Origin: Cymodocea nodosa
Lineage: Eukaryota > Streptophyta > Magnoliopsida > Alismatales > Cymodoceaceae
Length of the DNA stretch: 64,000 nt
Direction of reading: 5' to 3'
Assembly: GCA_036874045.1 (NCBI GenBank)
Contig: CM072337.1
Span: 6,572,001-6,636,000 of the forward strand
Made by a program: the position numbers and the translations under genes. Below are positions 1 through 53,039 of this stretch, piece after piece (position 1 is the first letter of the stretch; each line of letters opens with the position of its first letter). A model generated the notes under the pieces. It saw nothing but the letters and a program-made list of their open reading frames with translations, searched no databases and had not been told where the DNA came from.

Positions 1-857
1 TTTTCTTTCAGTTGATTTGTTTGATCATTTTTAGCTTCATTCGCAGATTCAGATTGTTCTTCAGTGATTTCTAGATTTTCAGCTATATTTTCATTATCAT
101 TTTGATTTTTACTCTTGTCCACCTTCATATCATTTTCATTTTGAGTTCTTGGTGGTATATCAGTTCCAGATCTTAATGTTACACATACATCTTCCAGATT
201 TTCATTATTTTCATGATGTTTTTGCATATCATTTTCGTGATTATGATCTTAAATTGCTTTTAGTTTTAAAGTGCATTTTTTAAATTCTCTTACATTAGTG
301 TTTTCTGTATGCTGTATATTTTGCAAATTATGTAGGTTTATAACATTATAATTCTCATTGTCCTGTTACATAACTTGTATTTTCATTGCATTTTCGTCTA
401 ATGTTTTTAATTTTGTTTCCAAATCATCTAATTTCATTGCATTCAATTTTTGATCAATTTTCTTTATGGCTTTTTTAGTTTCGTAAATTATATCCTGTTT
501 AGGTTCTAAATATGATTCCTTATAGTTTAACTGGTTGACTTCTTATTGTTGGCACACAAAGTATTCCAGTTTGTCAAGATTTTGCTCTATACTATGCTCT
601 AGTCTGTCATAGCTATCCCAAACTTCAGTGTCTCTCATCATATTACACATTCTATACTAACCATCAGTTGGATAAACTATAGGATTCTCATACTCATCTC
701 TATTATATTGAGGATAATTCATTTGTTGTTCATGGGATCTAACAATCTATAGACGTCTCAATTTCAAACAGTCAGAAATGTCGTGTCCTTTAGAATTGCA
801 GAATTCACATATGCTAATTACAGGTTTTAGAAATCTTTGAGTATAAGCATATGCCAT
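1..857 (-). pseudogene. Nucleocapsid-pol N-terminal region of G1 (partial, broken)
   Basis: The minus-strand frame opens with ATG at 857 and is homologous to 18078-18930 of G3. It encodes the same run: zinc-knuckle region, a YPQYNRDEYENP stretch, a coiled segment and a TLRSGT motif that usually precedes the Athila protease. Several in-frame stops are present, so it is a pseudogene, cut by the window edge. It is useful as a second copy: where G3 has a frameshift near 18305, G1 keeps two extra bases (GACACTGAAG versus GACTGAAG) and an open frame, showing that zinc knuckle and protease were once one ORF. As in G3, no capsid coding lies between the PBS and this ORF; only about 95 bases separate them. 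Confidence 0.75.
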
Positions 858-951
858 ATTCTCAATTACAGAAGAAAACACACAACTCTGACTATTAAAA
901 CGAAACTGCTCTAATAGCTGCTTATAATAATTTAATTCAATTCAATTCAAT

Positions 952-969
952 TCCTCGGCAACAGCGCCA
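952..969 (-). other. Primer binding site, tRNA-Asp type (G1)
   Basis: The minus strand reads TGGCGCTGTTGCCGAGGA, close to the plant tRNA-Asp PBS used by Athila elements. It starts 7 nt after the LTR end. Confidence 0.85.
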
Positions 970-976
970 TAAAATT

Positions 977-3027
977 TGTTTGGATTTTCCCAATACTACA
1001 CTAGAAAAACTTGGATTTGTTACTTCTGATTTTACTTAGTTAATTTATCTTTATGCTTATTCTCTCTTTTAGAAGTAAACAAACAACCTTTAATACAATT
1101 TAGATATTAATTCCAATTTGTACTTTAACTGTAAGTGCACAATGTCTATTGTATCAGTGTGCAAGTACAGGTCGATCCCACAAGGAATTGTTGACGAATT
1201 TAAGAACTATTTGATTGTTAAAAATCAAATTTATATATTCAATAAGTTCTCCATTGAATTACAGCTAACTCAACCAACTAAGTTCGTTGAGTTATGGATA
1301 ACTCAACGGACTAACCTCGTGGACTTAAGTTAACTCCACGAGCCTGCCTTTTCTTTTTAATATTGCTATTTACAGAGGAATTCGACCAACCATTGGGCGA
1401 TTCCACAGATTGTAAATAACATCAATTAAGCTCTTTAATGTTAGCTAACATTGGATTTATCATTGAGCAATACTAACATTCAGATAATTCAAACAGTAAC
1501 CATTAAAATCTTTAAGTCTTTTGAACGAACCAATTTCAGTAAATTGTAAAACTAAAGTAAACATAAAACAATCACAAAATTGATACAGATAACATTAATC
1601 ACGATATAACACAAACAATACAACACTCAAATACAACATACAAACAAAGATAAATTGTTTTTGGTATTTTTGTTTTGATGTGAACATGTAAATGGGCGAA
1701 AGGTGAAATGTAAAGTAATCTCACTTGACAGTAAATACTTCCGACACTACTTGCAACGCGATTACACCACTGAAAATTAAACCACTTACAATCCTATCTC
1801 CTCTCCCTATAGAATCGTGAGTCCAGAATTGCAAGATGATCTCCTCTTCAGCATACAGGCATCAACCCGAAGCCAAGGCTAAAAGCTTTACGATCTCCTC
1901 AAATATGAGTCGGCGCTTGGTGAAAATGGCTTCCCTTCCCATGACGCGATCACTCCTCACAATGGTTGTCAGGCACTGTGTTTGGCTTGGAATCGACCCG
2001 ACATCAGGCAAGTATCCTCACAAACCTCCGATGGTTGGTGATTGTGGTGGTGGTAACAATGGTTGGTGTGATACTTCGGAGAATCACCGATATTGTTTGT
2101 AGAAAGCTAGATGCTCCTCCTCTATATACACTGGTCGTCCATCAATCACACACTTCTTCTTTTTTTCTTCTTTTCTTTTATATTTCTTCAGTAGTAATTG
2201 CTTCTGCTTGAATGGTCGGTTGGATTTCCTTCATTCATATCAACGACGATGATTTCTTTTCCCTACGCGATTGAGTTCCTGCGTGATACGTGCAAACATG
2301 GTTTTTCCTTCAACTGTCCTGTTTTTGCAACTGCTACAGTGGCATATTAGAAAATATATAGTTCGTGGAGTTACAGATAACTCAACGGACTTTCTTCGTT
2401 GATTTAACTATAAAACACGTGCAAAAATAACAACTTAAGTTTATAACGCTAACCGAATGTGTTGCCTTAGTGTTCAATATAGCAACTCAACGCGTTTAGT
2501 TATGTTAACTTAACGAGTTCGTCTCTTCTTTTACTCACTAACTTAACGAGTTATCAAAACATGCACTGTTCATGATACAGAAGATATAACTTTAAAACAT
2601 ATTATGCTTTTCAATAAAAACACACGTTAACTTAATGTTTAGCTAAATGAGAAATTAATGCAACGAAACGACTAGTTGTTAACTTCAGGAAACTTTCAAA
2701 ACATAACTGCTCGGCAATTTAAACATAACTACCCGATACATATTCGGTCTGTTAAACATAAATATCTGAATTTGTTCGGTATGTTAAACATAAATGTCTG
2801 AAATATCAGAAAATTCGGATACTTAAGAATTTCACAACCTACAACTTACCGACAGTTCATAAATGTACTAAATTAACATTAATTCCCCCAAATTAAGCAA
2901 ATTCTTCAATTAAAGCATATAATAGTGCAATTATAACATAATGGCTTAATTCATATATGATAAGCTAAATATTGTGCAATTAACCATCATTTAACCATTA
3001 ATAATATGCACTTTTTCATTCTAAACA
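977..3027 (-). repeat. G1 5' LTR (family G)
   Basis: The LTR runs from TGTTTAGAATG at 3027 to CAAACA at 977, about 2050 bp, slightly longer than the other G LTRs (1.76-1.84 kb). It carries the family's inverted pair of GTTGAGTTA / TAACTCMACG motifs, for example at 2361-2390 and near 1255-1335. Small ORFs inside it recur as shadows in other LTR copies and are not genes. Confidence 0.85.
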
Positions 3028-3907
3028 GGGATAGATCATATTATGGGGATGGATGAAGGATTAATTATATACAGAACCAAACCAAGGTATGCAATTCTAT
3101 TACCTGATATTTTGATTAGAAATCCTATTACAAGAGAAGAATGGAATATAGGAAGACCTAATAGAAATGAAGTACCAACTGAAAATTGTGGGTCGGCTTT
3201 AATATTTTATGATAAAAATTCGTCCATTCCTAAAAAATTATATTATTGGAGACCTATAGGAAAATGAGATGAAGATTTATGCTTGAGTGTGTATAATTTT
3301 ATAAATAGATCTTGGACTAAAAACACTATGATATATCTAGGGCAGAAATCATTAATTAACAGCATACATGTCATTCTTGATGGATATATATAGATAGTCA
3401 CAGATATATTAGTTGCATTTAGATCTGATTTATACATAGTAAGCATAGATAGTTATGATGAATATATAGAAATATTACCTATACCAAGTGATAATAGCTA
3501 AACCACCATCTGCATAATATGATAAAATTCAATTAGGAATGTGGTATAATGAATATGATGATCTTACTTTATGTCTTATAAGATGGTGGGATGAATTGAT
3601 GAAATTTCAAATATAAATTATGAAAGACATAAATGAGTAGAAGTGGGAAGAGGAATATATTGAAATAGATATAGAAATAGAAACTGCTACATTATCCTGG
3701 AACCAAAAAGGATCCCTTTCTACATTTCATTTCATTAATGGTAATACACTTGTATTTAGCATTGATAATATACTACAAGTTTACAAATTAAGAAGGAACA
3801 CGAACTGCATTAAAACAAAATTAATAGCAAGAAGAATTATGCCTAAAAAGTTTGCTTGGACTGACACGTTTATTCCATTTGTTTCTACTTTTCAATCATG
3901 TTCTTAA
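3028..3907 (+). pseudogene. F-box protein remnant of element G2 (5' part removed by G1)
   Basis: This frame is homologous, at DNA and protein level, to residues 90-378 of the F-box ORF at 27959-29095. It starts mid-protein (GIDHIMGMDEGLIIY) because G1 inserted there, so the F-box motif itself is missing. It carries stops (near 3265 and 3392) and a frameshift near 3485. Where the G3 copy has a premature TAA (28868), this copy has GAA and reads on through TATLSWNQKG to a stop at 3905, which shows the original protein was about 378 residues. The sequence after it (UTR, PPT, LTR) is also shared with G3, so the F-box belongs to the family structure. Confidence 0.8.
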
Positions 3908-5660: not shown

Positions 5661-7460
5661 TGTTTAGAATGAAAAAGTGCATAATATTAATGGTTAAATG
5701 ATGGTTAATTGCATAATATTTAGCTTATCATATGAGAATTAAGCCATTATGTTATATTTGAACTATTATATGCTTTAATGAAAGAATCTACATAATTTCA
5801 AGGAATTAGTGTTAATTTAATACATTTCTGAACTGTCGGTAAGTTGCTAGTTTTTAATTCTTTAGTATCCGAATTTTCTATTATTTTGAAGAGTTATATT
5901 GCATGTACCGGATAATTATGTTTTAAACGCTAAAAGAATATTTAGGTGAACAGTAATAATGCGTTGAGTTACATGAATACACACTAAGGTAACGCATTAG
6001 GTTAGTAGCTTATTTCTTTATTGCACGTGTTTTATAGTTAATCAACGAAGTAAGTCCATTGAGTTATCTGTAACTCCACGGACTTTTTATTTTCTAATAT
6101 GCCACTATAGTGGTTATAGAAGCAAGACATTCGAAGGAAAACCATGATCACATGTATCACGCAGGAATTCACTCGTCGAAGGGAGAAGAAATCATTGTCG
6201 TTGATATGAATGAAGGAAATCCAACCGACCATTGAAGTAGAAGCAGTTACCACTGAAGAAATATAAAAGAAAAGAAGAAAAAGAAGTAAAGAATGTGATC
6301 GATGGGTGTAGCCAGTGTTTGCAGAGGAGGATTTGCGTCGGCAATTCTCTGAAGTACCACACCAACCATCATCACCACCGCCATAATCACCAACCATCAA
6401 AGGTCTGTGAGGATACTTTCTTGATGTCGGGTTGATTCCGAGCCAAACACAGTGCCTGACAACCACTGTGAGGAGTGATCGCATCGCGGGAAGGGAAGCT
6501 ATTTTCACCAAGCGCCAACTCATATCTCAAGAGATCGTAAAACTTCTAGCCTTGGCTTCAGGTTGATGCCTATATGCTGAAGAGGAGATCATCTTGCAAT
6601 TCTAGACTCGCAATTCTATAGGGAGAGGAGGCATAATTATAAGTGATTAAGTTTTTAGTGGTGTAATCGCGTCGCATGTAGTGACGGAAGTATTTACTGT
6701 CGACTAAGATTACTTTACATTTCACCTTTTGCCCATTTCCATGCTCATATAAAAACAAAAATACCAAAAACAACTTATTTGTGTTTATATTTTGTATTTG
6801 AGTGTTGTATTGTTTGTTTTGTATTGTGATTAATGTTATCTTTGTCAGTGTTTTGATTGTTTTATGTTTGTTTTAGTATTACAATTTACTGAAGTTGGTT
6901 CGTTCAAAAGACTAAAAAAATTTTAATGGTTATTGTTTGAATTATTTGAATGTTAGTACAAATCTTACTAACATTAAAGAGCTTAATTGGTGTTATTTAC
7001 AATCTGTGGAACCGCCCAATGGTTGGCCGATTTCCTTTGTAAATAGCAGTATTAAATAGGAAAGGCAAGCTCGTGGAATTGACTTAAGCCCACGAGGTTA
7101 GTACGTTAAGTTAGCCATAACTCAACGAACTTAGTCAATTGAGTTAACTGTAACTCAACGGAGAGCTTATTGAATATATAAATTTGATTGTTAAAATCAG
7201 AACAGTTCACAATTCTTAAGCAATTCCCTATGGGATCGACCTGTACTTGTACACTAATACAATAGACACTATGCACTTGAAGTTAAAATACACATTGGAA
7301 TTAATATCTAATTTGTGTGAAAGGTTGTTTGTTTACTTCTAAAAAGGAATAGGCATAAAGATAAACTAAGTAAAAATAGAAGTTAACAAATTCAAGTTTT
7401 GCTGGTGCGTTGTTGGGTAACCAATCAAGTTTTTCCAGTGCCGTGCTAAAGATCCAAACA
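5661..7460 (+). repeat. G2 3' LTR (family G)
   Basis: A 1.8-kb LTR from TGTTTAGAATG (directly after the PPT) to GATCCAAACA. It contains a TATA box at 6262-6268 and inverted GTTGAGTTA / TAACTCMACG motif pairs at 6055-6083, 7104-7130 and 7136-7163. The right flank (7461 onward) reads into a copia gag on the minus strand, so G2 inserted into that gag. The first flank bases are CCACA; the matching left target duplication is outside the window. Confidence 0.9.
6262..6268 (+). promoter_or_regulatory. TATA box in G-family LTR
   Basis: TATAAAA, within AAATATAAAAGAAAAG. It is conserved in position in G3 LTRs (16731-16737 and 31414-31420), about 200 bp after the U3 inverted motif pair, as expected for the Pol II promoter at the U3/R boundary. 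Confidence 0.6.
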
Positions 7461-16202: not shown

Positions 16203-17972
16203 TATTTAGAATGAAAAAGTGCATATTATTAACGGTTAAATGATGGTTAATTGTATAATATTTAGCTTATCATATGAGAATTAAGCCATTATATCATAAT
16301 TGCACTGTTATATGCTTTAATTAAAGAATCCGCTTAATTTTGGTGAATTAATGTTAATTTAGTACATTTCTGAACTATTGATATGTTGCAGGCTGTGAAA
16401 TCCTTAAGTATCCGAATTTTCTGATATTTCAAATAGTTAAGTTTATAAGTATCCGAAATGCACCTGAGCATCGAATAGTTAAATTTATGCATGTGTTTTA
16501 TAGTAAAATCAATGAGGTAAGTCCGTTGAGTTATCTATAACTCCACGGACCTTTTATTTTCTAATATGCCACTGTAGCGGTTGCAGAATCAGGACAGTTG
16601 GAAGGAAAAACCACGATCGCACGTATCATGCAGGAATTCACTCGTCGAAGGGAGAAGAAATCATCGTCGTTGATATGAATGAAGGAAATTCAACCAACCA
16701 TTCAAGCAAAAGTAGTTACCACTGAAGAAATATAAAAGAAAAGAAGAAAAAGAAGTAAAGGGGTGTGTGATCGATGGGTATGGCCAGTGTTTACAGAGGA
16801 GGAGCACCGAGCTTTCTGCAGACAGTATCGACAATTCTCTGAAGTACCACACCAACCATTATCACCACCACATTACCACCACATTATCACCAACCATCGG
16901 AGGTCTATAAGGATACTTTCCTGATATCAGGTCGATTCCGAGCCAAACACAGTGCCTGACAACCATTGTGAGGAGTGATTGCGTCGCGGGAAGGGAAGCT
17001 ATTTTCACCAAGCGCCGACTCATATCTCAGGAGATCGTAAAGCTTCTAGTCTTGGTTTTGGGTTGATGCCTGTATGCTGAAGAGGAGATCATATTGCAAT
17101 TCTAGACTCGCAATTCTATAGGGAGAGGAGACAGAATTGTAAGTGGTTTAATTTTCAGTGGTGTAATCGTGTCGCATGTAGTGACGGAAGTATTTACTGT
17201 CGACTAAGATTACTTTACATTTCACCTTTCGCCCATTTCCATGTTCATATTAAAACAAAAATACCAAAAACAACTTATCAGTGTTTGTATTTTGTATTTG
17301 AGTGTTGTATCGTGATTAATGTTATATTTGTTAGTGTTTTGATTGTTTTATATTAGTTTTAGTTTTACAGTTTACTGAAATTGATTCGTTCAAAAGACTT
17401 AAAGATTTTAATGGTTACTGTTTGAATTATCTGAATGTTAGTATTGCCTAATGATAAATCCAATGTTTACTAACATTAAATAGCTTAATTGATGTTATTT
17501 CCAATCTGTGGAATCGCCCAATGGTTGGCCGAATTCCTATGTAAATAGCAGTATTAAATAGGTAATGTAGGCTCGTGGAGTTAACTTAAGTCCACAAGGT
17601 TAGTCCGTTGAGTTAGCCATAACTCAACGAATTTAGTCCGTTGAGATAATTGTAACTCAACGGAGAGCTTATTGAATATATAAATTTGATTGTTAACAAA
17701 TGGAACAATTCTCAATTCTTAAATAATTCCCTATGGGATAGACCTGTACTTGCACACTAATACAATATACACTATGCAATTGCAGTTAAAATACAAATTG
17801 GAATTAATATCTAACGTGTATTAAAGGTTGTTTGTTTACTTCTATATAAAAAAATGAATAGGCATAAAGATAAATTAACTAAGTAAAAATAGAAGTTAAC
17901 AAATCCAAGTTTTTCTAGTGCGTTGTTGGAGATTCAAATAAGTTTTCTAATGTCGTGCTAGCCAAGCAAACA
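16203..17972 (+). repeat. G3 5' LTR (family G)
   Basis: 1770 bp, starting TATTTAGAATG (the terminal TG mutated to TA) and ending CAAGCAAACA. U3 contains a near-perfect 30-bp inverted repeat (16521-16550) and a TATA box at 16731-16737; motif pairs recur near the end (17590-17665). Confidence 0.88.
16521..16550 (+). promoter_or_regulatory. Inverted-repeat motif in G LTR U3
   Basis: Arms GTCCGTTGAGTTAT and ATAACTCCACGGAC face each other with 2 nt between. Equivalent sites: 2361-2390, 6055-6083, 36376-36403. It sits upstream of the TATA box, so it is a candidate dimeric transcription-factor site. Confidence 0.55.
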
Positions 17973-17979
17973 AGTTTTA

Positions 17980-17997
17980 TGGCATTGTTGCCGAGAG
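17980..17997 (+). other. Degenerate tRNA-Asp primer binding site (G3)
   Basis: TGGCATTGTTGCCGAGAG, 7 nt after the LTR end; the G1 copy of this site is nearer the canonical sequence. Confidence 0.75.
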
Positions 17998-18077
17998 TTG
18001 AATTAATATAAGCAACTGTTAGAGCTGTTTCATTTTAATATGCAGAGTGTTGTGTGTTTTCTTCTGTAATTGAGAAT

Positions 18078-20247
18078 ATGGTATATGCTTATGCTCAAAG
18101 ATTTCTGAAACCTGTAGTTAGCATGTGTGAATTCTGCAATTCTGAAGGTCACGACATTTCTAACTGTTTGAAACTGAGACGTTTGCAGATGGTTAGATCC
18201 CATGAACAACAAATAAATTATCCTCAATATAATAGAGCCGAGTATGAGAATCCTATAGTTTACCCAACTGATGGTCAATATAGAATGTGTAATATGTTGA
18301 GAGACTGAAGTTTGAGATAAGTATGACAGACTGGAGCATAGTATAGAGCAAAACCTGGATAAACTAGAATACTTTATGTGTCATCAACAAGAAGTCAACC
18401 AATTAAACTATAAGGAAGCATATTCAGAACCTAAAAAGTATATAATTTACGAAACTGAAAAAACCATAATGAAAATTTATCAAAAATTGAATGCAATGAG
18501 ATTAGATGATTTGGAAGGAAAACTAAAAGCATTGGACAAATATACAATGAAAATACAAGTTATGCAACAGGATAATGAAAATTATAATGTTATAGATCTA
18601 CATAATTTGCAAAATATACAGCAAACAGAAAATACTAATGCAATAGAATTTAAAAAATGCACTTTAAAATTAAAAACAATTGAAGATTATAATCACGAAA
18701 ATGATATACAAAAACATCACGAGAGTAACGAAAATTTGGAAGATGTTTGTGTAACATTAAGATCTGGAACTAATATACCACAAAGAACTCAAAATGAAAA
18801 TAATATGGTGGATAAGAGTAAAAATCAAAATGATAATGAAAATGTAATAGCTAAAAATCTAGAAATCACTAAAGAACAATCTGAATATGCTAATGAGACT
18901 AAAAATGATCAAACAAATCAACTGAAAGAAAAAGAATCTTGTAAATCACAATCTTTAGCACCCTATCCTGAAAGATTACAACAAACAATACCTGAAAAAC
19001 AAGAAAAAATCAGAAAAATTTTTGAAAAAGTACAAGTTAACATTCCTTTGTTAGATCTATTGCAGAAAATGCCACCTTGTGCTAAATTTCTGAAGGATTG
19101 GTATACGAAGAAAAGAGAGCGAAAAGTTCTTAGAAAGGTCTTTTTAGCTGAGCAAAGTAGTTCCCTATTTTTGCCACAAATTCTTAAAAAGTTATCTGAT
19201 CCTGGAATCTCTGTTATATCATACACCATAGGAAATATCATTCTAGAAAGAACCTTAATAGACTTAGGTGTAGGTATAAATGTTATGCCAAGTGATATAT
19301 TTGCATCCTTAGGATTAGAAGGCTTAACTCCTACTAGTACAGTTATTCAATTAGCTGATAGAAGTATAAGATACCCTAGAGGAAAAATAGAAGATGTCTT
19401 AATTAAAATCAAAAACTTTATATATCCTATTGATATTGTAATTTTGGATTCCCAACAAATTAAGTATAAAAATAATGATACATCTTTAATTTTGGGAAGG
19501 CCATTTTTAACAACATCAAGGGGTGTTATAAATTGTAAAACTAGAGTAATGAAGTTAGCATATGGTAATGAGGATACTCAATTAAATATTTTCAAACCAG
19601 AAAGGTTTGAGGAGTTAGAAATGTCCTTATATACCATAGACTTTTTAGAGGATGAAGGAGATATGTTAGAGGATGTGATCCAAGAAGAATTAAATAGGCA
19701 AATCAATTCTGAAACTTTAGGGGAAAGTGAAAGCATAAATATAGAAGGAGATCTGGAAGAAATTAATTTAGAAATTGATGATGTTCAATTAGGAGCTTTA
19801 GCTTCTGATAGGCAACATTTAGAATTAAAACATTTACCTCCTGAATTAACCTATATATTTTTGGAAGAGAAACGAATCTATCCAATCATTATTGCTTCAG
19901 ATTTAAAAGAGGATCAAATAGCTAAATTAAAAGATGTAGTGAAAAGTTATAAAGAAGCAATAGGATGGATTATGACTGATATGAAAGGGTTAAGTTCAAC
20001 TTTATGCTGTCACCACATATATTTAGAAGAAAATACTAAACCTGTTAGAATTCTTGAGAGGAGATTAAATCCAAACCTTAAAGTAGTCAAGAAGGAAATA
20101 GTGAAATGGTCAGATAATGACATAATTTATCCAATTTCTGATAGCTCGTGGGTTAGTCCAATCCATGTAGTTCCCAGGAAATCAAGATTAACAATTATTA
20201 GGAATGAAAGTCAAGACTTGATATCTACTAGAATTCAATCAAGCTAG
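18078..20247 (+). pseudogene. G3 nucleocapsid-protease and RT N-terminus
   Basis: ATG at 18078 matches the G1 start. The zinc knuckle CEFCNSEGHDISNC fits C-X2-C-X4-H-X4-C and binds RNA. A 2-bp deletion near 18305 (compare G1) shifts the frame; from 18376 it stays open for 623 codons. In order: a coiled segment rich in K, E and N; TLRSGT (about 18755), which in Athila lies before the protease; the aspartic protease with TLIDLGVGINVMPSDIF (D at 19261), where D-L-G replaces the usual D-S/T-G as in other Athila proteases, and LILGRPFLTTSRG; then the RT entry region ending at a TAG (20245) that replaces the Trp of the usual GWR motif. Unlike standard Athila, no capsid precedes the zinc knuckle. 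Confidence 0.88.
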
Positions 20248-21465
20248 AGAGTATGTATAGACTATAGAAAGCTGAATGTTGTAACTAGGAAAGATCATTT
20301 TCCCTTACCTTTTATAGATCAAATGTTGGAAAGATTAGCAGGGCAAGAATATTTTTGTTTCCTAGATGAGTATTCAGGTTATAATCAAATTCCAGTAGCA
20401 TTAGAGGATCAAGAGAAAACAACTTTCACCTGTCCTAATGGAACTTATGCTTTTAAGAGAATGCCATTCGAATTATAAAATGCACCAGCTACCTTTCAAA
20501 GGTGTATGCAAGGCATATTTACTGGAATGATTGAAGATTTTTTGGAAATATTTATGGATGATTTTACTATATATGGCAACTCATATGAAGTTTGTTTAAA
20601 AAATTCAGACCAAATATTAAAACGTTGTGTGGAAAAAAATCTGGTTTTAAACTAGGAAAAATGTCACTTCATGGTTAAACAAGGAATAGTCTTAGGGCAT
20701 GTTGTTTCTAAGAAAGGGTTGGAAGTAGATAAAGCTAAAATAAAGTAATTTCCAATCTACCAGAACCTAAATCAGTAAAAGATATTAAATCATTTCTAAG
20801 ACATGCTGGTTTTTATAGAAAATTTATTAAAGTCTTTAGCAAAATAGCTAGACCTTTAACTAATCTATTAAAAGATGTCCCATTTAACTTTGATAAAAAT
20901 TGCAAGGAAGCATTTTTCAAACTTAAAACTAGCTTAATTTCAACTCCTATAATTTAAGCACCTGATTTGAGCCATCCATTTGAATTAATGTGCGATGCAT
21001 CTAATTTTGCTGTAGGAGCAGTGTTGGGACAAAAGATAGAAAAATCTCCTAAGTGATTCATTATGCAAGCAAAATCTTAAATGATGTTCAGTTAATTACA
21101 CAACTACTAAAAAAGAATTATTAGTTGTTGTGTTTACTTTAGAAAAGTTTAGATCATATCTGATTGGAACTAAAGTAATAGTATACATAAATCATGCAGC
21201 TTTAAAACACATAATAGCAAAAAAAGAGACTAAGCCTAGATTGATCCGATGGATATTATTATTACAAGAATTTGATCTAGAAATTAAAGATAAAAAAGGT
21301 TGTGAGAATGTAGTAGCTGATCATTTATCAAGATTACAAATAGAAAAAATAAATATTGAAATTAAGGATAATTTTCCTAATGAACAATTAATGGCCATCA
21401 ACACAATGCCTTGGTATGCAGACATAGTTAATTACTTAGTTGCTGGTTTAACACCTAAGGATTGA
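20248..21465 (+). pseudogene. G3 reverse transcriptase and RNase H
   Basis: In frame with the previous ORF across one stop. RT motifs: VCIDYRKLNVVTRKDHFPLP, then MLERLAGQEYFCFLD, then FKRMPFEL (stop) NAPATFQRCM, and the catalytic FMDD within EIFMDDFTIYG (about 20550-20580). A frameshift near 20745 is followed by SVKDIKSFLRHAGFYRKFIK. RNase H: HPFELMCDASNFAVGAVLGQ (about 20970), a frameshift near 21045, then [20 protein letters not shown] and [11 protein letters not shown], ending [10 protein letters not shown]. These domains make double-stranded cDNA from element RNA. At least three stops and two frameshifts mean the copy is dead. Confidence 0.9.
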
Positions 21466-22717
21466 AATAGACAGGATAAGAAATTGTTTTTCTCAAGAGT
21501 AAAATATTACTATTGGGAAGACCCATACTTATTTAAGAAATGTCCCGATTTAGTTCTAAGGAGGTGTGTTCCAGAAACTGAATATCAAAGCATATTACTT
21601 TTCATGACCAAGCTTGTGGAGGGCATTTTGGCTCTAGGAAAAATGGTGCAAAAATTCTGCAATGTGGGTTTTATTGGCCAACACTATTCAAAGATGCTCA
21701 TAAATACTACTTAAGTTGTTTAAGATGTCAACAAATAAGAAGAATATCAAAGAGCAATATGCTGTCTCTTAATCCTATTATTGAGGTTGAAATCTTTGAT
21801 GTGTGGGGAATAGATTTTATGGGTCAATTTCCTATGTCTAATCAATTTAATTACATATTGTTGCGAGTGGATTATGTATCTAAGTGAATAGAAGTTATTC
21901 CTACAAAAACTAATGACAACAAAGTGGTAATACAATTTATAAGAACCAATATATTTGCCAGATTTGGAATACCTAAAGCTATTATCAGTGATAGAGGAAC
22001 TCATTTCTGTAATAGAAGTTTTAAAGCCTTAATGAAGAAATATGGAGTAAACCACAAAATTGCAACATCATATCATCCACAAACAAGTGGACAAGTAGAA
22101 AGTGCTAACAAACAAATTAAGTTAATCTTAGAAAAAGTAGTAAATCCTACTAGAACAGATTGGGCTACTAAATTGATAGATGCACTTTGGGCTTATAGAA
22201 CTGCTTATAAGACAAGCTTAGGTATGTCACCTTTTATGCTAGTATATGGAAAAAGTTGTCATTTACCAACTGAAATAGAACATAAAGCTTATTGGGCATT
22301 AAAAACTCTAAACACTAATTTAAATCAAGTTGTTGAGAATAGGAAAATGCAATTAATTGAATTAAAAGAATTTAGAAATGAAGCTTATTCAAAGACTGTA
22401 AGAGAAAAAGAGAAAAAAAGAAAATGAAATTCTAGCATGATAGAAAAATTATTCCAAAAAGCTTTGAAATAGGACAAGAAGTATATCTTTATATGGCTAG
22501 AATCCATAACCATCTAGGAAAATTAAGATCTAGATGGGCAGGACCTTATATGGTTCGAAATATTTATCCTTATGGAGTTATTGAGATTGAAAATCCTAAA
22601 AATCAGAATATATTTAAAGTAAATGGACAAAGACTTAGACCTATTCTAAAAACACCAAAAAACTACTTTGGAATTGTAGAAGAAGTCAGAGTAGAGGACT
22701 ACTCGAGCTTTACTTAG
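21466..22717 (+). pseudogene. G3 integrase
   Basis: Zinc-binding HHCC region at about 21600-21735 (CHDQACGGHFG-type and CLRCQQIRR), partly frameshifted. Catalytic core: D in DVWGIDFMGQF (about 21800-21830), D in SDRGTHF (codon 21990), E in SGQVESANK (codon 22098), 35 residues apart, so the DDE triad is intact apart from one stop (TGA near 21885) between the first two. After a frameshift at about 22427 come GKLRSRWAGPYMVRNIYP and FKVNGQRLRPI, the C-terminal DNA-binding module of Athila/Tat integrases. It inserts cDNA into the genome. The ORF ends at TAG 22715. Confidence 0.92.
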
Positions 22718-23231
22718 TAAGAAATCAGTTTTTATTTTGTGATTGTAAAAAAATATATATATATATTATAAAATATAAAAATCGTTGTAGTTCAACTGAC
22801 TAGATCCATCGATATGACTGGAACATAAAAATATCTATATTAATTTTCAGAAAAAAAATGTTGGTTTTATCGAAACATAGTATCGGTTAAACCAGTAAAA
22901 ACAAAAAAATATTATTATCTTAAATTTTTTTTTTTTTTTATATCTGTTTGTACGGGAAGTTCATTGAGTTATGCTTAACTCAACGAGCTTACTCCGTTGA
23001 GTCTTGAGTTAGTCAATGAACTTATTCCGTTGAGTTAACTGTAACTCAACGGAGTACTGTAACTAAGACTACAGATGAGAGAGCGAGATTTGGTTCAGGA
23101 AATGACCCAATTACTCGCCTAAACTTAGGGTTTATTTATCTTAAACTTAGGGTTTTGGGGGCGTTATCTGGCAAATCATTTAGAACTTAGAATAGTAGAA
23201 ATCAGAGCGATTCATGTCATTGTGTAACTCC
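22718..23231 (+). promoter_or_regulatory. G3 spacer 1, between integrase and ORF-X
   Basis: Non-coding. It holds a TATATATATATATA run (22752-22771), then facing copies of GTTGAGTTA / TAACTCAACG (22965-23055), then two AACTTAGGGTTT telobox-like boxes (23120-23155). Two further G3 spacers share the TATA run and the motif, suggesting a separate promoter for each downstream ORF. Function is inference. Confidence 0.45.
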
Positions 23232-25466
23232 ATGATGAGGAAGATGACACCTGAGTTCTAGGAAGATACAGTTGACAGCACAGTTTCTGAAGGAATCAGA
23301 GGAATGGCACATGCAGAAAAAGATTCAGAATACGACAAGAGAAAAAGAGTTACAGAATGTAGAATCCGAACTTTTTAGATTAAGAAGAATATTAGTAGAT
23401 TATGGTATACAAATACCTCAGATAATGGAGACATGAATCAGAGTACCAACATAAATTGCAGTTGGTAAAGAAAGAAAAATCAGGTCGAACAATGATGTAG
23501 CCCTAGAGCAAATCCAGCGCAAGGACAGATTATGGTTCAAAAGGTGCATTGCTGGTTGTGGAAGTTGGGAAATATGGCGCCAGCAACAAGCAAGAGAACG
23601 AGAGGAACCAACTACTGAAAGACCTGCTCCTGAGGAACAACAGTCAGGACCTCCAGTTCAGCCAATAGAGCCATTGCCATAAGTAGCATTTAATTGGCCG
23701 AGAACTGATGAAGAAGAGAAAGAGTTTGCTAGCTTGGTCAAAACAGCAAGAGACCAAGGTGATGATGAAGGAATAGCTACAACTAAGGCACATATTTTAT
23801 ATGATGTCAATAAGAAAATAAGGGTCGAAGAAAAGTTGAGGGCCCAGTACAAAATTAAGATTGAACAGCATCAGGCAGCAACTAAATAAGGTGCTGCAAG
23901 AGAAGCTAAACCTGGTCCTTCGAGACCAGCAATTATTGAAAGAATTAAACAGGAAGAGCCAGTACCTATGGCTCGAAGGCCTGCAGAACCTACCTTTGTA
24001 GATTTAATTTCAGAAGATGAAGAGAAAGATCAGGTACAATTAATCAAAAAAAGGAAAGGAAAAGAAATATTGCTTGAAAATCAAGAGGAAATTAAATCTG
24101 AAGTACCAATATTAAGAGGGCCTGTAGAGCCAATTTTTATAAACCTGCTATCCGATTCTGAGGAGGAGCCGGAGCAGCACAGCAGCAGCAGCAACAGCAA
24201 CAGGAGCAAAGAGAAGAAAAACAGGTTGAAATTAGTCTGCAGCCTATACAAGAAGAAGAAACAGAAATTAGGGCAGAAACTGAATTGCTCGTGACTCCAT
24301 CCCAATCTGCCATAGAATCAGAAAGAGTAGTGACAAAGCAGATTGGTAGTCAGGAGGAGGAAGAAAGAACATAAAATGAAGAAGAAGCTAAACAAAGCCA
24401 TTTGGACAAAAATGACTTTACAAATTCCATTGAAGAGCAAGAAACTCTTCAGCAATTTATGGAAGGAATTCAAGACAGAGTGGAGAGTTCTGCCGGCTCA
24501 CCACCACAGACAAAAGCAAAAGTAAAAATTCTAGAATATGTAGAACATGTTCAAGTGTAGCCTATAGTAGAGGAAGATCAAGAACAAACCCCTCTAGAAC
24601 AACAAAGTCACATTCCTGACCCGACTGAAACAACAGTTTTGAATGAAGTACATTTTTAGTGTTAGGAAGCTTATAATAAATATCAAGTGATTAAGGGTTA
24701 TGATATTATTTACAGTAGACCAGTAAATTGGGATGGAATGCAAGAAATCAAAGAATTATTTGAATTCCAAGGTCTACTGAATTTTATTTCTCAAGAAAGA
24801 GGGCATGTAGTATATGAGAATCTAGTGCCCTATTTTTATGCAAATTTGAGAGAAGAAGAAGGAAAATTAATTTCCAACATGGAGGAAGCTGATGTACAGA
24901 TAACACCAAAGCTTCTCCACAACATTTTTGGATTAAAGAATGAAGGGTAGGAAATATTAGAAAGTACAACTTCCATTGAATGGACAAAACAGACCATAAA
25001 GGACAGTTTGGCTATCAACCCTAGTGTGCTTTTATTAAACAGACTAAAGCATTTAAATGGTAAAGCACACATGGTAGCCAACATTTTGATTAAGAATGTC
25101 TATCAATGACAAGGCCATGACATAGAATTGAGTCAATTTGTCAAATGGGCCACATTTGCAATTGTAGATAGAAATCCAATAAATTAGTCTGCAATTTTTA
25201 TCTCCAAGCTGAGAACAATAAAGAAGAAATTGTTTTATGGAGATATAATTCCACTACTAATGGTGGATAGTATTGATTTCACAAAATGAGCATCAAAGAG
25301 AATCAAATCAAGAACCATTTCAATGAAAGAGTACATAAATTATGTAGCTGCAGAGATAGTTGTACCTTTTGGAGAAATTACAGGAGCCGTAGAGAGGATT
25401 AATCAATTAGATCAACAATTAGAAAAACTCTAGAAGGAAGTAGATGAACTGAGGAATAGAGACTAA
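23232..25466 (+). pseudogene. ORF-X of G3: plant transposon-associated protein, broken
   Basis: The start is uncertain (ATG at 23232 or later). The frame is broken by several shifts and stops but reads as one protein: a charged N-terminal half (RTDEEEKEFASLVK, IRVEEKLRAQYKIKIEQ), acidic patches such as VDLISEDEEKDQ repeated as INLLSDSEEEPEQ, a Q/E-rich linker (24165-24650), then a conserved globular domain from 24687 (YDIIYSRPVNWDGMQEIKEL, YFYANLREEEGKLIS). That domain resembles the 'putative plant transposon protein' family (my recollection of PF20167) and is clearly homologous to 42091-42700 in this window. A C-terminal coiled coil (VERINQLDQQLEKL) ends at 25464. Function unknown; position after integrase parallels the env-like ORFs of Athila, but no signal peptide or membrane segment is visible. 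Confidence 0.65.
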
Positions 25467-26589
25467 ATAGTATTGTTCATCTATTTGTATATATTTGTAT
25501 GAAAAATATCTGAATTGATTGTAATGTAAATTGATTCATATTAATGAATATAAATTTTTCAAACATACTTTTCATGTCTGTTTTGAATTTGAAATGAATG
25601 GAATTTATTGAATATTATATAATTTGTGAAACATTATGAATGAATGTTTAACAGATTTACAATTTGCTGAATGACAAGATAAATGCTTGAAAATTTTTGC
25701 ATGTTAAAAGGTAAAATGCAAATTCTGCATAACATAAAATGACCTGCAAGTTAAATATTTATATAATGTTCAGATTTAAACGAATTTTGATTAGAATGAA
25801 GCATTAATGACATAGATTTAACTTTATTTTAGTTAGTAGAATGCAGAAAAAAAAGAAAGAACATAGAAGTTAATACGAGGAGTAAACTTAGAAGTTGCCA
25901 AGTGTTAACTCAACGAAGTAAGTTCATTGAATTAAACTTAACTTCACGAGGTCAATAATATAATATAAGGTCACTCCGTTGAGTCATCTGTAACTCAACG
26001 AAGTTAGTCTGTGGAGTTAGCAACAGTGACCGACATTATTCCATTGAGTTATCTGTAACTCAACGAGGTTAGTTTGTGGATTAAGTAGAACAGTTATTCT
26101 TTTAACCACGAACGAAACTTCGTTGGTTTAGCGGTTACCAAAATTTGAAATTAATAGTGGTACACGTACCCATAAAAACAGGAACCACGATGCACGTTGC
26201 AAGACATGTTCTTGCAACAAGATTTATTCACTTTATGGATGTGCATTATATATATATAATAGAATGTTATTTACGAATTATCAGCACTTTTAAAAGAAAG
26301 GAGAAAAGCATTGGAGGAACTGAAAGGTGAAGCAACTGATTCGACTTCGTCTGTCAACAAATATTTACTGAATGAAAAGCTTCAAACTGGTATGTAATTA
26401 ATTTTCTGCTATCTTATTTTATGTTAAGAGTTTATAAGCACATGGACTCGTTCTCTCAGCACTAAACGATTAGTAAGAACACCTACCTAGGAATTTTCAA
26501 CATAGAGACGTACTGAAACATTTTATGAATTGGACTTTAACGAAATCCTTTAGGGTGTAGCTAACCTTTCATTAAAAGAGAATGTAGAG
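25467..26589 (+). promoter_or_regulatory. G3 spacer 2, between ORF-X and capsid
   Basis: Non-coding AT-rich DNA. Facing GTTGAGTTA / TAACTCAACG motifs lie at 25903-26085, followed by a TATATATATATAA run (26248-26260). A donor-like GGTATGTAAT is at 26389. It may be a leader or promoter for the displaced capsid ORF. Confidence 0.45.
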
Positions 26590-27771
26590 ATGGCTGCTCT
26601 AGTAGAAAAACCATTAGGAGAAATTCTATATCCTGAATTAGTTGATGAACCTTCATGTATTCGATTACCAAACTTTAAGGGAGATAGGTTTGAACTGAAA
26701 TCTAATTATATTAGTCAATTACCACATTTTCATGGATTAGAAAGAGAGGATGTCTATTATTTCCTTAGAGAATTTAATGAAGTTTGTCAAATGATGAAAA
26801 TGCCGAACATGAGTATAGATGCTATTAAACTTAGATATATCCCTTTTACTTTAAAATGCCGAACATGGTTATATACTCTATTGCCTGATTCAATTTCTGC
26901 ATGGACTGAATTTTGCTCTGTTTTTCTAGAAAAATATTATCCAACACATCAAACGATTAAAAAGAAAAAAGAAATATTAATGTGTAGCCAAAAATAGGGT
27001 GAATCATTTTGAAAATATTTTGAAAGATTTAAAGATTTACTAACTCAATGTTCGCATCATACAATGAGTAAAGCACAATTAATAGGTATAATTTATGAAG
27101 GCATAGATGTTTCAACAAAATCTTTATTAGAATCTACTTGTCAAAATGGATTTCTGAAACTTTGTAGTGAAGAAGCATGGGCATATTTAGAAAACTTTGC
27201 AAAAAGAACTACACAGTCGGAAAACTTGGCTGAAGCTATTGTAGATAAAAGAATATTGCTAAGAGGAATGCATGAAATAGATTCGAGCACTATGCTTGAA
27301 GTGAAATTAACTGAATTAACAAAGAAAATAGAAGAGTTATCATTAAATCAAAAACTAGCACAAAAGAATGCAAACATAAATGATTTAGATATTATTTATG
27401 CTCGAAACCAGAAAGATAACTTTGGAAATTCTTATAATCCTAATTGGAGAAATCACCCGAATTTATCTTGGAGAAACAACAATTTCCAAGTAGGAGAAAA
27501 TATAAATGAGAAGAATATAAGTTATGAAGCATTACTTGAACAAGGATCTAGAATAGAGAAATTAAAAAAAATAATCTAACAATTAAACAATCGTCTGGAT
27601 TTTGTATTTGGAAATACTGCAATTCAAAATCAGAATAGAAATATACCACTTAGACAGAAGGAATCAATAGAAGTTAGATCTACTGGAGGATTGCCAATGT
27701 AAGCAGTACCTAACCCTATCAATAGAACTGTTAATGAAATTAATACCTCTTCTAGGAGGGTAGCTAAATGA
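26590..27771 (+). pseudogene. G3 Gag capsid (Athila type), located downstream of pol
   Basis: ATG at 26590. The frame is continuous to 27771 apart from four stops (26995, 27010, 27577, 27702), each one substitution from a plausible codon. Motifs follow the Athila Gag order: NFKGDRFELKSNYISQLPHF, HGLEREDVYYFLREFNEVC, IKLRYIPFTLKCRTWLYTLL, then SAWTEFCSVFLEKYYP, ESF(stop)KYFERFKDLLTQC and VSTKSLLEST. The C-terminus (STGGLPM, AVPNP) matches the LP-x-NP segment that normally lies just before the Athila protease. Capsid forms the virus-like particle. Normally it sits between PBS and zinc knuckle; here it is about 8.5 kb further on, after integrase and ORF-X. No zinc knuckle is attached. Confidence 0.85.
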
Positions 27772-27958
27772 AGCAACATATCTGAAGCAATTATCTATAT
27801 ATATATGTTTTTATTTATAGTTAATAGTATTGTAGAGTTAGTCCTTAACTCAACGAACTTAGTTTGTTGAGTTATGCCTTAATTCCACGAGGGTGTGCAG
27901 TAGTTATGTTAATTTTTGTCTCTACTAAATTTTTGTTTGTGTTATACAAAATCAATAA
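27772..27958 (+). promoter_or_regulatory. G3 spacer 3, between capsid and F-box
   Basis: 187 bp with a TATATATATATG run (27796-27806) and facing motifs TTAACTCAACGAAC and GTTTGTTGAGTTA (27833-27880). A compact version of spacers 1 and 2. Confidence 0.45.
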
Positions 27959-29095
27959 ATGGAATTGATGCAATTACCGTTGGATGCACTAAGGGAAGTA
28001 CTAAGTAACTTGTCTGCTAAAGATCTATGCATGTTGTGTTGTGTATCAAAGGAAATTAAAGACTGTATTGAAGAAAAATATTTTCAGGGACTACAAGGTG
28101 CAAAAATGACTAAGACTAGAGATGGATTCATATGGAAGTCATTTAATCGTAGTTCAATTAACCATGAATATCTGAATATGAAAGAAACTACTGGAATTCC
28201 ACCCAATACATTAGAAGGAATAGATCATATTATGGGGATAGATGAAGGATTAATCATATACAAGACGAGACCAAGGTATGTAAGTCTATTACCTGATATT
28301 TTGATAAGAAATCCTATAACAAGAGAAGAATGGTATATAGGAAGACCAAATAGATATGAAGTACCAACTATAAATTGTGGGTCGGCTTTAATATTTTCTG
28401 ATAAAAATTCTACAATTCCTGAAAAATTATATTATTGGAGACCTACAGGAAAATGGGATGAAGATTTATGCTTGAGTGTGTATAATTTTATAAATAGATC
28501 TTGGACTAAAAATACTATGATATATCTAGGACAGAAATCATTAATTAACAGCATGCATATCATTCTTGATGGATATATATATCTAGTCACAGATATATCA
28601 GTTGCATTTAGATTTGATTTATACATAGTAAGCATAGACTGTTACGATGAATATATAGAAATATTACCTATACCGAGTGAAATAGCTAAATCACCATCTG
28701 CAGAATATGATAAAATTCAAATAGGGATGTGGTATAATGAATATGATGATCCTACTTTATGTCTGATAAGATGGTGGGATGAATTGATGAAATTTCAAAT
28801 ATGGATTATGAAAGACATAAATGAATGGAAGTGGGAAGAGGAATATATTGAAATAGATGTAGAAATATAAACTGCTACATTACCTTGGAACCAAAAAGGA
28901 TCCCTTTCTGCATTTCATATCATTAATGGTAATACACTTGTATTTGGAATTTATAATATATTACATGTTTACAAATTAAGAAGGAACAAGAACTGCATTA
29001 AAACAGAATTAATAGCAAGAAGAATTATGCCTAAAAAGTTTGCTTGGACCGACACGTTTATTTCATTTATTTCTACTTTTCAATCATGTTCTTAA
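27959..29095 (+). pseudogene. F-box protein encoded by G3 (one nonsense codon)
   Basis: ATG at 27959 gives 303 codons to a TAA (28868), then 74 further in-frame codons to TAA 29093; the G2 copy has GAA at the first stop, so the original protein was about 378 residues. Residues 5-23 (LPLDALREVLSNLSAKDLC) followed by CVSKEIKDCI are a textbook F-box, which binds Skp1 in SCF ubiquitin ligases. Residues 90-130 (GLIIYKTRPRY, LIRNPITREEWYIGRP) resemble the start of F-box-associated domains of plant F-box proteins, which choose the substrate. There is no intron. It lies 187 bp after capsid and 1.8 kb before the PPT. It could be a captured host gene; its target cannot be read from sequence. Confidence 0.82.
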
Positions 29096-30892
29096 GTTGT
29101 GATTTTGTGTGTTTAATGTTGTGTCTATTCTGCATTTATTTTTAGAAAGAAAAATTTTAGTTTTAGTTTGTTTTATAAAATAAAATAAAAAAATAACAAA
29201 AACAAAAATAAAATATCAATCCAATTTGTTGGTATCTATTCTGGGAAACCAACTGGCTTGCTTGTGAGCCACCAAATGCATAGGAGCCTGGGTTCCACAC
29301 AAAACAATGATTTATAAATATCTGTTAAATGTTATTTTATTTTATATTCTGCTTTTATCTGTAAATGAAAAGTTTTTCAGAATCAAAAATTGGAATATGC
29401 AAAAGGAGATACAAACGAAACAAGGTATGTAACTGATTACTTATCCTGAGTTTAAATTTAAACTCATTTATTGAGTTAAGTGCTAAATCAACGAAATTGT
29501 ATTCATGCCTGCTACAATTACTATATTTATTGTCAAATCTTTTACATTGAGGCCAATGCAAAATGTAGGTATGGGGGGAGGTAATTAAAGTAACAGTCAG
29601 GTAAGTTTGTTAACTAAAGAAATTAAAATGGTATTGCAAAGTTTTATGGAAAGTGAAAATTTTAATGAACTTGCTATAACTATCCGATAATTGAGACTGT
29701 AATTTTTTGTATATAAATTGTAACTACTTGAATGTTATATTTATAATCTTATATAAGATGCTACAAATTTTACTATTCATACAAATCTAGATATAGTATC
29801 TTATGTTTTTGCTGAAATTTATGATTTTAATAGTTTCATGATTTTAAAATGAAATCAGAATGCTTAACTGAAAATCAGTAAATTGTCTAAAGTCCTGAAG
29901 GAGCTGAGATGTGAATTCTAGATTAAATGAAACACATATGATTAAAGATACATTTAATTTGACTGATTAAACTTGTAGAATGATTTATGTGTATATCTTA
30001 TTAAACTACAAAAAAAGTATGAGCTTATTGTTATGGATTCATATTATCAATAAATGATAGAAGCAAGACTATATGAGATTGGTGTTTTATTGCATCTGTG
30101 TTAATGAAATACGTACACATATAGTATGTGATTAATGTTTTGTTTTGTTTTTGTATTTTGAAAAAAAAAAACTTTGAGAGTTTATTAACTCGTTTAATCA
30201 CGAGCCTTTTGTACTTGAGCAGATAGGTATGTAATGATTGTTGACCTGAAAAAGGACTCTTGAAATCTGGCAACCTAAGATCCTGATCAGATCTGGGATT
30301 GTTGACTGAAAGCTCATTACATGGGTACATTAGAAAGCTCCTGTATGATTCAAGCTTGTCAAATTAACTTTTAAAGTACAAAAGAAAAAAAGAAAAAAAA
30401 ATAAATATACATATACTATTCTGAAAAGATACAAGTGTTTCGTGAAATACAGATATCTTATGAATTAAGTATATTTTATGTTATCTAGAATTACTAAAAT
30501 ATGAATCTAGAATTGACTTTTGAAGTTGTTTAATGGAGATACAATTCTTTATTCTATTTGTCTTAATCATATTGAATTGGATTGCACTTTGATTCGTATG
30601 TTGTTTCTTCTAGAAATCTTATTGGAAAATTCAAGATGACAGATGATGAAAAGAAGAACAAATGATAATATAATTAATACCTATGTGATGGTGATATACA
30701 TTGTATGTAATTTGCATATATTTTAAGTATATTTGCAGGTTGATTACTGAAACATACAGAAGATCTATATAATACAAGTTCTTATGCTGGACAGAAAAAA
30801 AAAAGGGAGAATTAATTCTAGCACTTTTAGAATGACCCATTAATGAGATCTTAGTTTGCTAAGGGACTAGCAAAATTTAGGTATGGGGGAAG
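29096..30892 (+). other. G3 3' non-coding region with two polypurine tracts
   Basis: Collinear with 3908-5660 of G2. Internal PPT TAGGTATGGGGGGAG (29566-29580) after ATTGAGGCCAATGC; terminal PPT GTATGGGGGAAG (30881-30892) directly before the LTR. Possible intron with donor CAAG/GTATGTAA (GT at 29425) and acceptor ATTTGCAG (ends 30738). A GGCAACCTAAGATCC module is near 30267. Small ORFs here are not conserved. Confidence 0.65.
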
Positions 30893-32653
30893 TGTTTAGA
30901 ATGAAAAAGTGCATATTATTAGCAGTTAAATGATGGATAATTGCATAATATTTAGCTTAACATATGAGAATTAAGCCAGTATATCATAATTGCACTGTTA
31001 TATGCTTTAATTAAAGAATCTGCTTAATTTCGGTGAATTAATGTTAATTTTGTACATTTCTGAACTGTTGGTAAGTTATCTATAACTATCCAAAATTGTA
31101 GTTGGGCATCAGATAGTTAGACTTGTAACTCTCCGAAATGTTTCTTTTATTATTAAACTACTGCTGACACGTGTCGAGATCTGGTAGATTTACTTAAGTT
31201 ATATATCGTTGAGTTATCTATAACTTCACGGATTATTTATTTTCTAATATGCCACTGTAGCAGTTGCAGAATCAAGACAGTTGGAAGGAAAAACCACGAT
31301 CGCACGTATCACGCAAGAATTCACTCGTCAAAGGGAGAAGAAATCATCGTTGTTGATATGAATGAAGGAAATCCAACCGACCATTCAAGTAGAAGCAGTT
31401 ACCACTAAAGAAATATAAAATAAAAGAACAAAAAGAAGTAAAGGGTGTGTGATCAATGGGTATGGCCAGTGTGTACAGAGGAGGAGCACCAAGCTTTCTA
31501 CAGATAGTATCGGCAATTCTCTAAAGTACCACACCAACCATTATCACCACCACATTACCACCACATTATCACCAACCATCGGAGGTCTGTAAGGATACTT
31601 TCCAGATGTCAGGTCGATTCCAAACCAAACACAATGCCTAACAACCACTGTGAGGAGTGATCGCGTCACGAGAAGGGAAGCCATTTTCACCAAGCGCCAA
31701 CTCATATCTCAAGAGATCGTAAAGCTTCTAACCTTGGTTTCGGGTTGATGCCTGTATGCTAAAGAGGAGATCATCTTGCAATTCTGGACCCACGATTCTA
31801 TAAGGAGAGGAGACAAAATTGTAAGTGGTTTAATTTTCAGTGGTGTAATCGTGTCGCATGTAGTGACGGAAGTATTTACTATCGACTAAGATTACTTTAC
31901 ATTTCACTTTTCGCCCATTTCCATGTTCATATTAAAACAAAAATACCAAAAACAACTTATCAGTGTTTGTATTTTGTATTTGAGTGTTGTATCGTGATTA
32001 ATGTTATCTTTGTTAGTGTTTTGATTGTTTTATGTTAGTTTTAGTTTTACAATTTACTGAAATTGGTTTGTTCAAAAGACTTAAAGATTTTAATGGTTAC
32101 TGTTTGAATTATCTGAATGTTAGTATTGCCTAATGATAAATCCAGTGTTTACTAACATTAAAGAGCTTAATTGATGTTATTTACAATCTGTGGAATCACC
32201 TAATGGTTGGCCGAATTCCTCTGTAAATAGCAATATTAAATAGGAAATGCAGGCTCATGGAGTTAACTTAAGTCCACGAGGTTAGTCCGTTGAGTTAGCC
32301 ATAACTCAACGAATTTAGTCCGTTGAGATAACTGTAACTCAACAAAAAGCTTTTTGAATATATAAATTTGATTGTTAACAAATGGAACAATTCTCAATTC
32401 TTAAGCAATTCCCTGTGGGATCGACCTGTACTTGCACACTAATACAATATACACTGTGTACTTACAGTTAAAATACAAATTAGAATTAATATCTAACGTG
32501 TATTAAAGGTTGTTTGTTTACTTCTATATAAAAAAAGAATAGGCATAAAGATAAATTAACTAAGTAAAAACAGAAGTTAACAAATCCAAGTTTTTCTAGT
32601 ACATTGCTAGAGATCCAAATAAGTTTTCTGGTGTCGTGCTAGCCAAGCAAACA
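30893..32653 (+). repeat. G3 3' LTR (family G)
   Basis: 1761 bp, TGTTTAGAATG to CAAGCAAACA, very close to the 5' LTR. TATA box at 31414-31420. Besides TAACTCAACG motifs it has TAACTCTCCGAAATG near 31128, the T1-type variant. It is followed by AGTTTTATG, the start of G internal sequence, rather than by host flank. Confidence 0.88.
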
Positions 32654-32661
32654 AGTTTTAT

Positions 32662-49341: not shown

Positions 49342-49355
49342 AAACCCCCAAGCCT
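49342..49355 (-). other. LARD terminal polypurine tract
   Basis: The minus strand reads AGGCTTGGGGGTTT directly before the LTR TGTAGAATC. Confidence 0.8.
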
Positions 49356-53015: not shown

Positions 53016-53033
53016 TCCTCGGCAACGGCGCCA
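53016..53033 (-). other. LARD primer binding site, tRNA-Asp type
   Basis: The minus strand reads TGGCGCCGTTGCCGAGGA, 6 nt after the LTR end; the best preserved PBS of the window. Confidence 0.92.
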
Positions 53034-53039
53034 AAAACT

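Follow-up and report, generated by a model that had tools for sequence, protein, structure and literature searches.

Silencing affects most plant long terminal repeat (LTR) retrotransposons, and little is known of how they resist it. Plants also use F-box proteins to mark proteins for destruction. The two subjects meet in a stretch of 64,000 nucleotides from Cymodocea nodosa (assembly GCA_036874045.1, contig CM072337.1, positions 6,572,001 to 6,636,000 of the forward strand; the window in what follows), where a 16.5-kb Athila-like element, G3, holds an F-box gene between its Gag capsid gene and the polypurine tract (PPT) and LTR at its 3' end. The 3' part of Athila elements otherwise carries envelope-like (env-like) open reading frames (ORFs).

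There is one close precedent. A Ty1-copia element of flax is likewise a plant LTR retrotransposon that contains an F-box gene, a single example that its authors read as transduplication (PMC5142383). It differs in belonging to Ty1-copia, and the passage that presents it gives neither a second copy nor a selection test; the two cases are compared by description only. The Cymodocea locus adds three things: the carrier is a Ty3/gypsy element, the 3' linkage recurs in a second copy, and the coding sequence shows a sign of constraint. The literature searched, with supplements and subscription papers outside its scope, yielded no further LTR retrotransposon with an F-box gene, and the term "F-box" is absent from the main text of PMC7264820, PMC11728184, PMC13317346, PMC9289625 and PMC11963269. 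Passages in PMC7602945 and PMC12062965 concern F-box genes of the host that lie near parts of transposons or are fused with them, and a Thlaspi "LTR-gene" of the F-box family is, by the passage that mentions it, a retro-duplicated host gene (PMC8764390).

Additional 3' ORFs are on record in plant LTR elements, by the relevant passages of two papers (PMC7264820, PMC11728184), and sunflower Athila 14 is described there as having one that is Transposase_32-like (PMC11728184). In Phalaenopsis, Ty3/gypsy elements are described with an m6A demethylase domain as an extra ORF (PMC9289625). They are like G3 in that a host-type regulatory domain is an extra ORF of an LTR retrotransposon lineage, and unlike it in that the domain is a 2-oxoglutarate dioxygenase and not an F-box. 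The same paper reports 15 unusual domains over 121 genomes; its passage names nine, with the F-box not among them. Outside retrotransposons, polerovirus P0 and nanovirus Clink are described as F-box proteins encoded by viruses, with possible redirection of the SCF ligase, and P0 as lacking the C-terminal interaction domains that F-box proteins usually have (PMC3588083); P0 is likened to the protein of G3 by description only.

I propose that an Athila-like lineage carries in its 3' part a resident accessory F-box gene, whose product would have a plant-type F-box-associated C-terminus and serve as an SCF receptor. Judging from sequence, I give this a probability of about 0.57, somewhat better than even.

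The F-box gene and its second copy

The gene of G3 opens as a frame of 303 codons on the plus strand (27959-28867), meets one in-frame stop, and remains open in the same frame for 74 codons more, up to a terminal stop at 29093-29095. An earlier note on this DNA, which described a 378-codon F-box gene with one internal stop at 27959-29095, had its coordinates right. It was right about the F-box as well: PF00646 matches residues 4-41 with E=1.8e-9 and 37.6 bits, above the cutoff of 20.5 (Pfam, first 303 residues). The F-box-associated (FBA) domain fares less evenly. NCBIfam F_box_assoc_1 (TIGR01640) matches residues 172-300 with E=1.2e-5 and 24.8 bits, below the cutoff of 37.9, and Pfam, whose filters discard most weak matches, finds neither FBA nor Kelch at a threshold of E=10. 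The protein is like plant F-box/FBA proteins in its N-terminal F-box and its C-terminal similarity to TIGR01640, and unlike them in scoring below the curated cutoff, in having no database relative at E<=10 and in being encoded within a retrotransposon. Searches of PDB sequences gave, for the whole F-box piece, a single match to an unrelated protein (E=0.16) and, for the N-terminal 47 residues, six matches of E 0.58-1.5, none significant, two of which are F-box only protein 4 (0.65-0.66).

The 303-residue piece has no relative at E<=10, and with it no closest host F-box gene, among the 516 candidates that shared words with it in a plant-rich protein set; such a search depends on common 5-residue words and on a similar length, and Cymodocea nodosa is not closely represented in the set. 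In the same set the protease frame of G3 has 2496 matches at E<=0.001, and among the 120 listed all those with a named organism are plants (Vitis, Malus, Zingiber and others). Collections that are uninformative for a plant gave no relative either: virus contigs, with 10 pattern stretches for the F-box piece and 9 for the capsid piece, and prokaryote genome contigs, with 3 stretches. The GC content at third codon positions (GC3) is 22% in the F-box frame, against 16-29% in the other ORFs of G3. The lack of a database relative and the ORF-like GC3 would fit long residence in the element, without proving it.

The gene is present a second time in the window. In the element G2, positions 3028-3904 encode residues 87-241, residues 242-292 and the last 74 residues, 86-88% identical to G3 (tblastn), and the copy runs on into an untranslated region (UTR) and LTR of the G3 type (3027-5845 against 28216-31077, 88.4% in self-comparison). 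The PPT-like sequence GTATGGGGG has exact sites at 4352 and 5649 in G2, at 29569 and 30881 in G3, and nowhere else in the window on either strand; each copy thus has two, about 1.3 kb apart, and the one at 30881 sits directly 5' of the 3' LTR of G3. The earlier note had seen in G2 a remnant of the same gene before the same UTR, PPT and LTR, and the two are indeed collinear from residue 87 onward.

Are these two insertions or one? The similarity of G2 and G3 stops at the ends of their LTRs (7448 and about 32641), and so they appear as separate insertions on the right side, where the different DNA beyond the LTRs also rules out a single segmental duplication. The left side of G2 is truncated by G1, a third element of the family, and the comparison of flanks applies to the right side. 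The independence of the copies, which the same note had asserted, therefore stands on the right and is cut off from view on the left. One might also suppose that an unrelated host F-box pseudogene was interrupted by retrotransposon DNA, or came to adjoin it, by chance, in a window that is dense in nested repeats. Gene, UTR, PPT and LTR, however, follow in the same order at two places with different right flanks, and I reject the idea as very improbable, largely refuted by the collinear copy in G2.

Part of the 3' UTR that follows the F-box gene recurs in a divergent copy (72-74%) at 45928-46574 on the minus strand. No F-box is detectable in that fragment.

Probable constraint on the frame and its bearing on origin

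Over 291 codon pairs of G2 and G3, the only copies compared, the ratio of nonsynonymous to synonymous rates (dN/dS) is 0.377 (NG86), with six stop-bearing pairs excluded from the ratio. Silent changes make up 21 of the 61 observed, against 12.6 expected when the same 61 changes are placed at random on matching bases (P=0.007). The excess belongs to this frame: shifted frames and the reverse strand give 18 against 16.6, 10 against 15.8 and 16 against 16.1 expected. It persists without methylation-context (CG/CHG) transitions (16/48 against 9.0, P=0.008) and on transversions alone (8/24 against 3.4, P=0.012). Gap events are scarce too: the UTR has 22 in 1790 bases and the F-box gene two in 876 (P=0.008), and of these two one is an end effect of the cut. 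The overall divergence is nearly equal in the F-box stretch (61/878 bases) and the UTR (126/1703), so that it is the placement of the changes that carries the signal, and not a lower overall rate. For a yardstick there is the start of the protease frame (18316-18932), which between G1 and G3 shows 22 silent changes in 59 against 15.1 expected (P=0.023) and dN/dS 0.287. Because the silent excess is specific to the frame and indels between the copies are few, the F-box gene was probably constrained, from residue 87 onward, while within the element. Changes that make or remove stops (7 against 5.0 expected) are slightly above expectation, fitting later decay.

A passenger gene would not need constraint: a host F-box mRNA could have been captured once by template switching and copied without benefit. 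Plant LTR elements are described as capturing many host genes (PMC7264820, PMC13317346), and both copies have decayed, with five stops and one single-base frameshift in the aligned codons of G2 and one stop in those of G3. Such a history does not lead one to expect the frame-specific silent excess and the scarcity of indels between two insertions. It is also at odds with the failure to find any relative among the 516 candidates, though the search was word-based and the plant not closely represented. I think a passenger unlikely.

Several points nonetheless weigh against a resident gene. Just two copies are available, and both are broken. The F-box domain is present in G3 only, being missing from G2 because the minus-strand LTR of G1 cuts the gene at 3027/3028, and the constraint result covers residues 87 onward; within these, the last 74 codons taken alone have no silent excess (4/14 against 3.6, P=0.50). 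The single-sequence AlphaFold model of the protein, with a mean predicted local distance difference test score of 37, is unusable. The flax case is interpreted, in the passage that describes it, as simple gene capture (PMC5142383), which favors a passenger. Finally, the flanks of G3 share no target-site duplication, the left being a repeat that is cut off partway and the right different DNA (by eye a copia gag, in which Pfam does not confirm a gag domain), and so G3 may be a recombinant. The order of zinc knuckle, pol, capsid and F-box gene is seen in this one, possibly recombinant copy; the linkage of F-box gene, UTR and LTR is seen in two.

On the other side stand the shared linkage, the silent excess, the few indels, a spacer motif on both sides of the gene (considered below) and the ORF-like base composition, and because of these I regard residency as supported. 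The earlier note had called the gene a resident of an Athila-like retrotransposon; that much finds support in two insertions that share gene, UTR, PPT and LTR, and its interpretation as a whole finds support in part. That a constrained copy was carried suggests a benefit to the element.

What benefit might this be? The predicted F-box protein would be made from element RNA and would bind Skp1/ASK through its F-box, and the host SCF ligase would then ubiquitinate a protein picked by the C-terminal domain. The target would most likely be a host factor that restricts the element. A component of RNA silencing or of RNA-directed DNA methylation is my first guess, a speculation by analogy with P0 and Clink. 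Alternatively, the protein may act not on silencing but on the life cycle of the element or on the cell cycle, through Gag turnover or entry into DNA synthesis. The F-box gene does adjoin the capsid gene, and Clink is described as an F-box protein that acts on a retinoblastoma-related protein, entry into DNA synthesis being the proposed outcome (PMC3588083). I consider this improbable. If the F-box gene is truly retained under constraint, it would become a concrete candidate for control of host protein degradation by the element itself. It would offer a testable link between mobile elements and the large, fast-evolving F-box families of plants, as well as a possible function for the puzzling extra 3' ORFs.

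Layout of G3 and its apparently split Gag

The features of G3, and those of G1 and G2 that bear on it, are collected in Table 1. The Ty3/gypsy order of protease, reverse transcriptase, RNase H and integrase is present, the protease match being weak and below cutoff, and the coding regions are fragmented with the exception of the long protease frame. G3 is like the Athila lineage in its plant Gag/Pol relatives, its Athila-type primer-binding site (PBS) and a weak Transposase_32 match after integrase, and it is on these that the name Athila-like would rest. It is unlike that lineage in having an F-box gene before the 3' PPT and a capsid that lies 3' of integrase, separate from the zinc knuckle. 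The PBS motif and its tRNA assignment are taken to be those of Athila; G1 has a site at 969 (-) with 1/14 mismatch to this motif. Scans for tRNA and Rfam families gave no matches.

Table 1. Features of G3 and of the related elements G1 and G2 (positions within the window).
Feature	Position	Strand	Evidence
G1, same family, inserted in the F-box gene of G2	1..3028	-	5' LTR (3028 to about 970), PBS, zinc knuckle, start of protease frame
G2 copy of the F-box gene, residue 87 onward	3028..3904	+	tblastn; codon comparison
3' LTR of G2	5661..7450	+	self-comparison, motif search, LTR alignment
5' LTR of G3	16204..17979	+	91.8% to 3' LTR, closest pair among six aligned LTR-like copies
PBS, Athila-type	17980..17997	+	3/14 mismatches to Athila-type motif
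Zinc-knuckle frame after PBS, without capsid	18039..18305	+	C-x2-C-x4-H-x4-C, by eye only
Protease frame reaching into reverse transcriptase	18316..20244	+	Asp_protease_2 E=0.011, below cutoff
Reverse transcriptase and RNase H fragments	20248..21462	+	RVT_1 E=3.1e-9, RT_RNaseH E=5e-17
Integrase fragments	21582..22714	+	Integrase_H2C2 E=1.1e-9; rve E=1.1e-7, 0.1 bit below cutoff
Broken 3' ORF in env position, weakly Transposase_32-like	23077..25466 (limits estimated)	+	PF20167 E=0.0075, below cutoff; three-frame reading
Gag capsid and downstream linker, in pieces, without zinc knuckle	26590..27772	+	Retrotrans_gag E=1.9e-5
Repeated motif between capsid and F-box gene	27847..27873	both orientations	motif scan
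F-box/FBA-like gene, first 303 codons	27959..28867	+	Pfam F-box; NCBIfam F_box_assoc_1, below cutoff
C-terminal 74 codons and terminal stop, same F-box frame	28871..29095	+	translation; 86% identity with G2
3' UTR with two PPT-like sites (29569, 30881)	29096..30890	+	self-comparison, motif search
3' LTR of G3	30892..32658	+	self-comparison, motif search, LTR alignment

A gag placed 5' of pol, with capsid and then zinc knuckle, is not what G3 has. Its 3' capsid aligns with the Gag of the database elements P0077 and P0053 over capsid and linker, with a gap at their zinc knuckle, and its own knuckle, recognized by eye, lies near the 5' end. The knuckle frame has no Pfam match, and its best match against 120 fetched proteins is at E=0.31; the same frame recurs in G1 at 893-630 (-), 83% identical. 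No PBS was found before the capsid gene, whether 3 mismatches to the Athila-type motif were allowed or 5 to the PBS of G3 itself. From these alignments the Gag of the G1/G3 family looks split, with the knuckle at the 5' end and the capsid 3' of integrase.

The gaps between the 3' genes have something in common. The 11-base motif AACTCAACGAA, counted with at most one mismatch and in both orientations, has 10 sites in the interior of G3, in four clusters (22960-23053, 25907-26067, 27847-27873 and 29485-29495), all 3' of integrase. They lie in the gaps between integrase and the env-like ORF, between that ORF and capsid, between capsid and F-box gene, and between F-box gene and first PPT. All four clusters fall outside ORFs in 98 of 12,909 circular shifts and in 0.39% of random placements, with ORF limits that were set after the map had been seen. 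At two mismatches three sites lie within ORFs (18392, 18920, 24745). The motif also occurs in LTRs and in further repeats, the whole window having 48 sites at one mismatch, and so it marks the non-coding DNA of repeats and not the F-box gene alone.

The split invites a second explanation. Elements that lack pol (LTR, capsid, F-box, LTR) and elements that lack capsid (LTR, zinc knuckle, pol, env-like, LTR) might share LTRs and complement each other; G3 would then be a recombinant, and the F-box gene would belong to the non-autonomous partner. In both G1 and G3 the PBS, zinc knuckle and protease follow one another without an intervening capsid, the capsid of G3 lies 3' of integrase with no PBS ahead of it, and the flanks of G3 are mismatched. 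Partnerships of this sort have precedents: Arabidopsis Athila elements with only gag, or gag and env, are described as under purifying selection, with recombination between families (PMC2410132), and in Cereba/Quinta one partner is described as having Gag and an extra domain and no pol (PMC11302176). Unlike Quinta/Cereba, the Cymodocea family shows no full separate pol-less copy, and the partnership is a rival reading only. Moreover, the two LTRs of G3 are each other's closest relatives (91.8%, with 31 informative sites against 15 and 9 for the other splits), as a single insertion predicts, and one motif runs through the gaps of G3. I regard a two-part system as possible but less likely than not, and it is compatible with a resident F-box gene.

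A more ambitious version of the resident-gene proposal can be drawn from the same order of genes. G3 may represent a rearranged multi-cistron lineage of plant Metaviridae that has knuckle and pol at its 5' end, has env-like ORF, capsid and F-box gene at its 3' end and shows one motif in the gaps. Its resident SCF receptor would act in addition to env and disarm a host restriction factor, for example RNA silencing, as an endogenous-retrovirus counterpart of P0 drawn from host F-box genes. So much at once seems doubtful to me.

Some minor observations remain. Spliced expression of the 3' genes is possible, as splice-donor-like words occur at 26389, upstream of capsid, and in the UTR at 29423 (4206 in G2) and 30225; the same scan also matches inside the F-box frame (28274). 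The Transposase_32-like segment of G3 has a second counterpart in an ORF segment at 42076-42351, with 43% identity. At 11205-11615 (-) and 14058-14402 (+) lie fragments of copia-type RVT_2 and gag. Lastly, a pair of LTR-like sequences (47303-49342 and 53040-55095, 93.8% identity) is accompanied by an exact copy of the Athila-type PBS motif at 53033 (-). The interior of the element they bound (47303-55095) is 3.7 kb long and has no ORF of 120 codons, and it is likely a non-autonomous element of Athila type.
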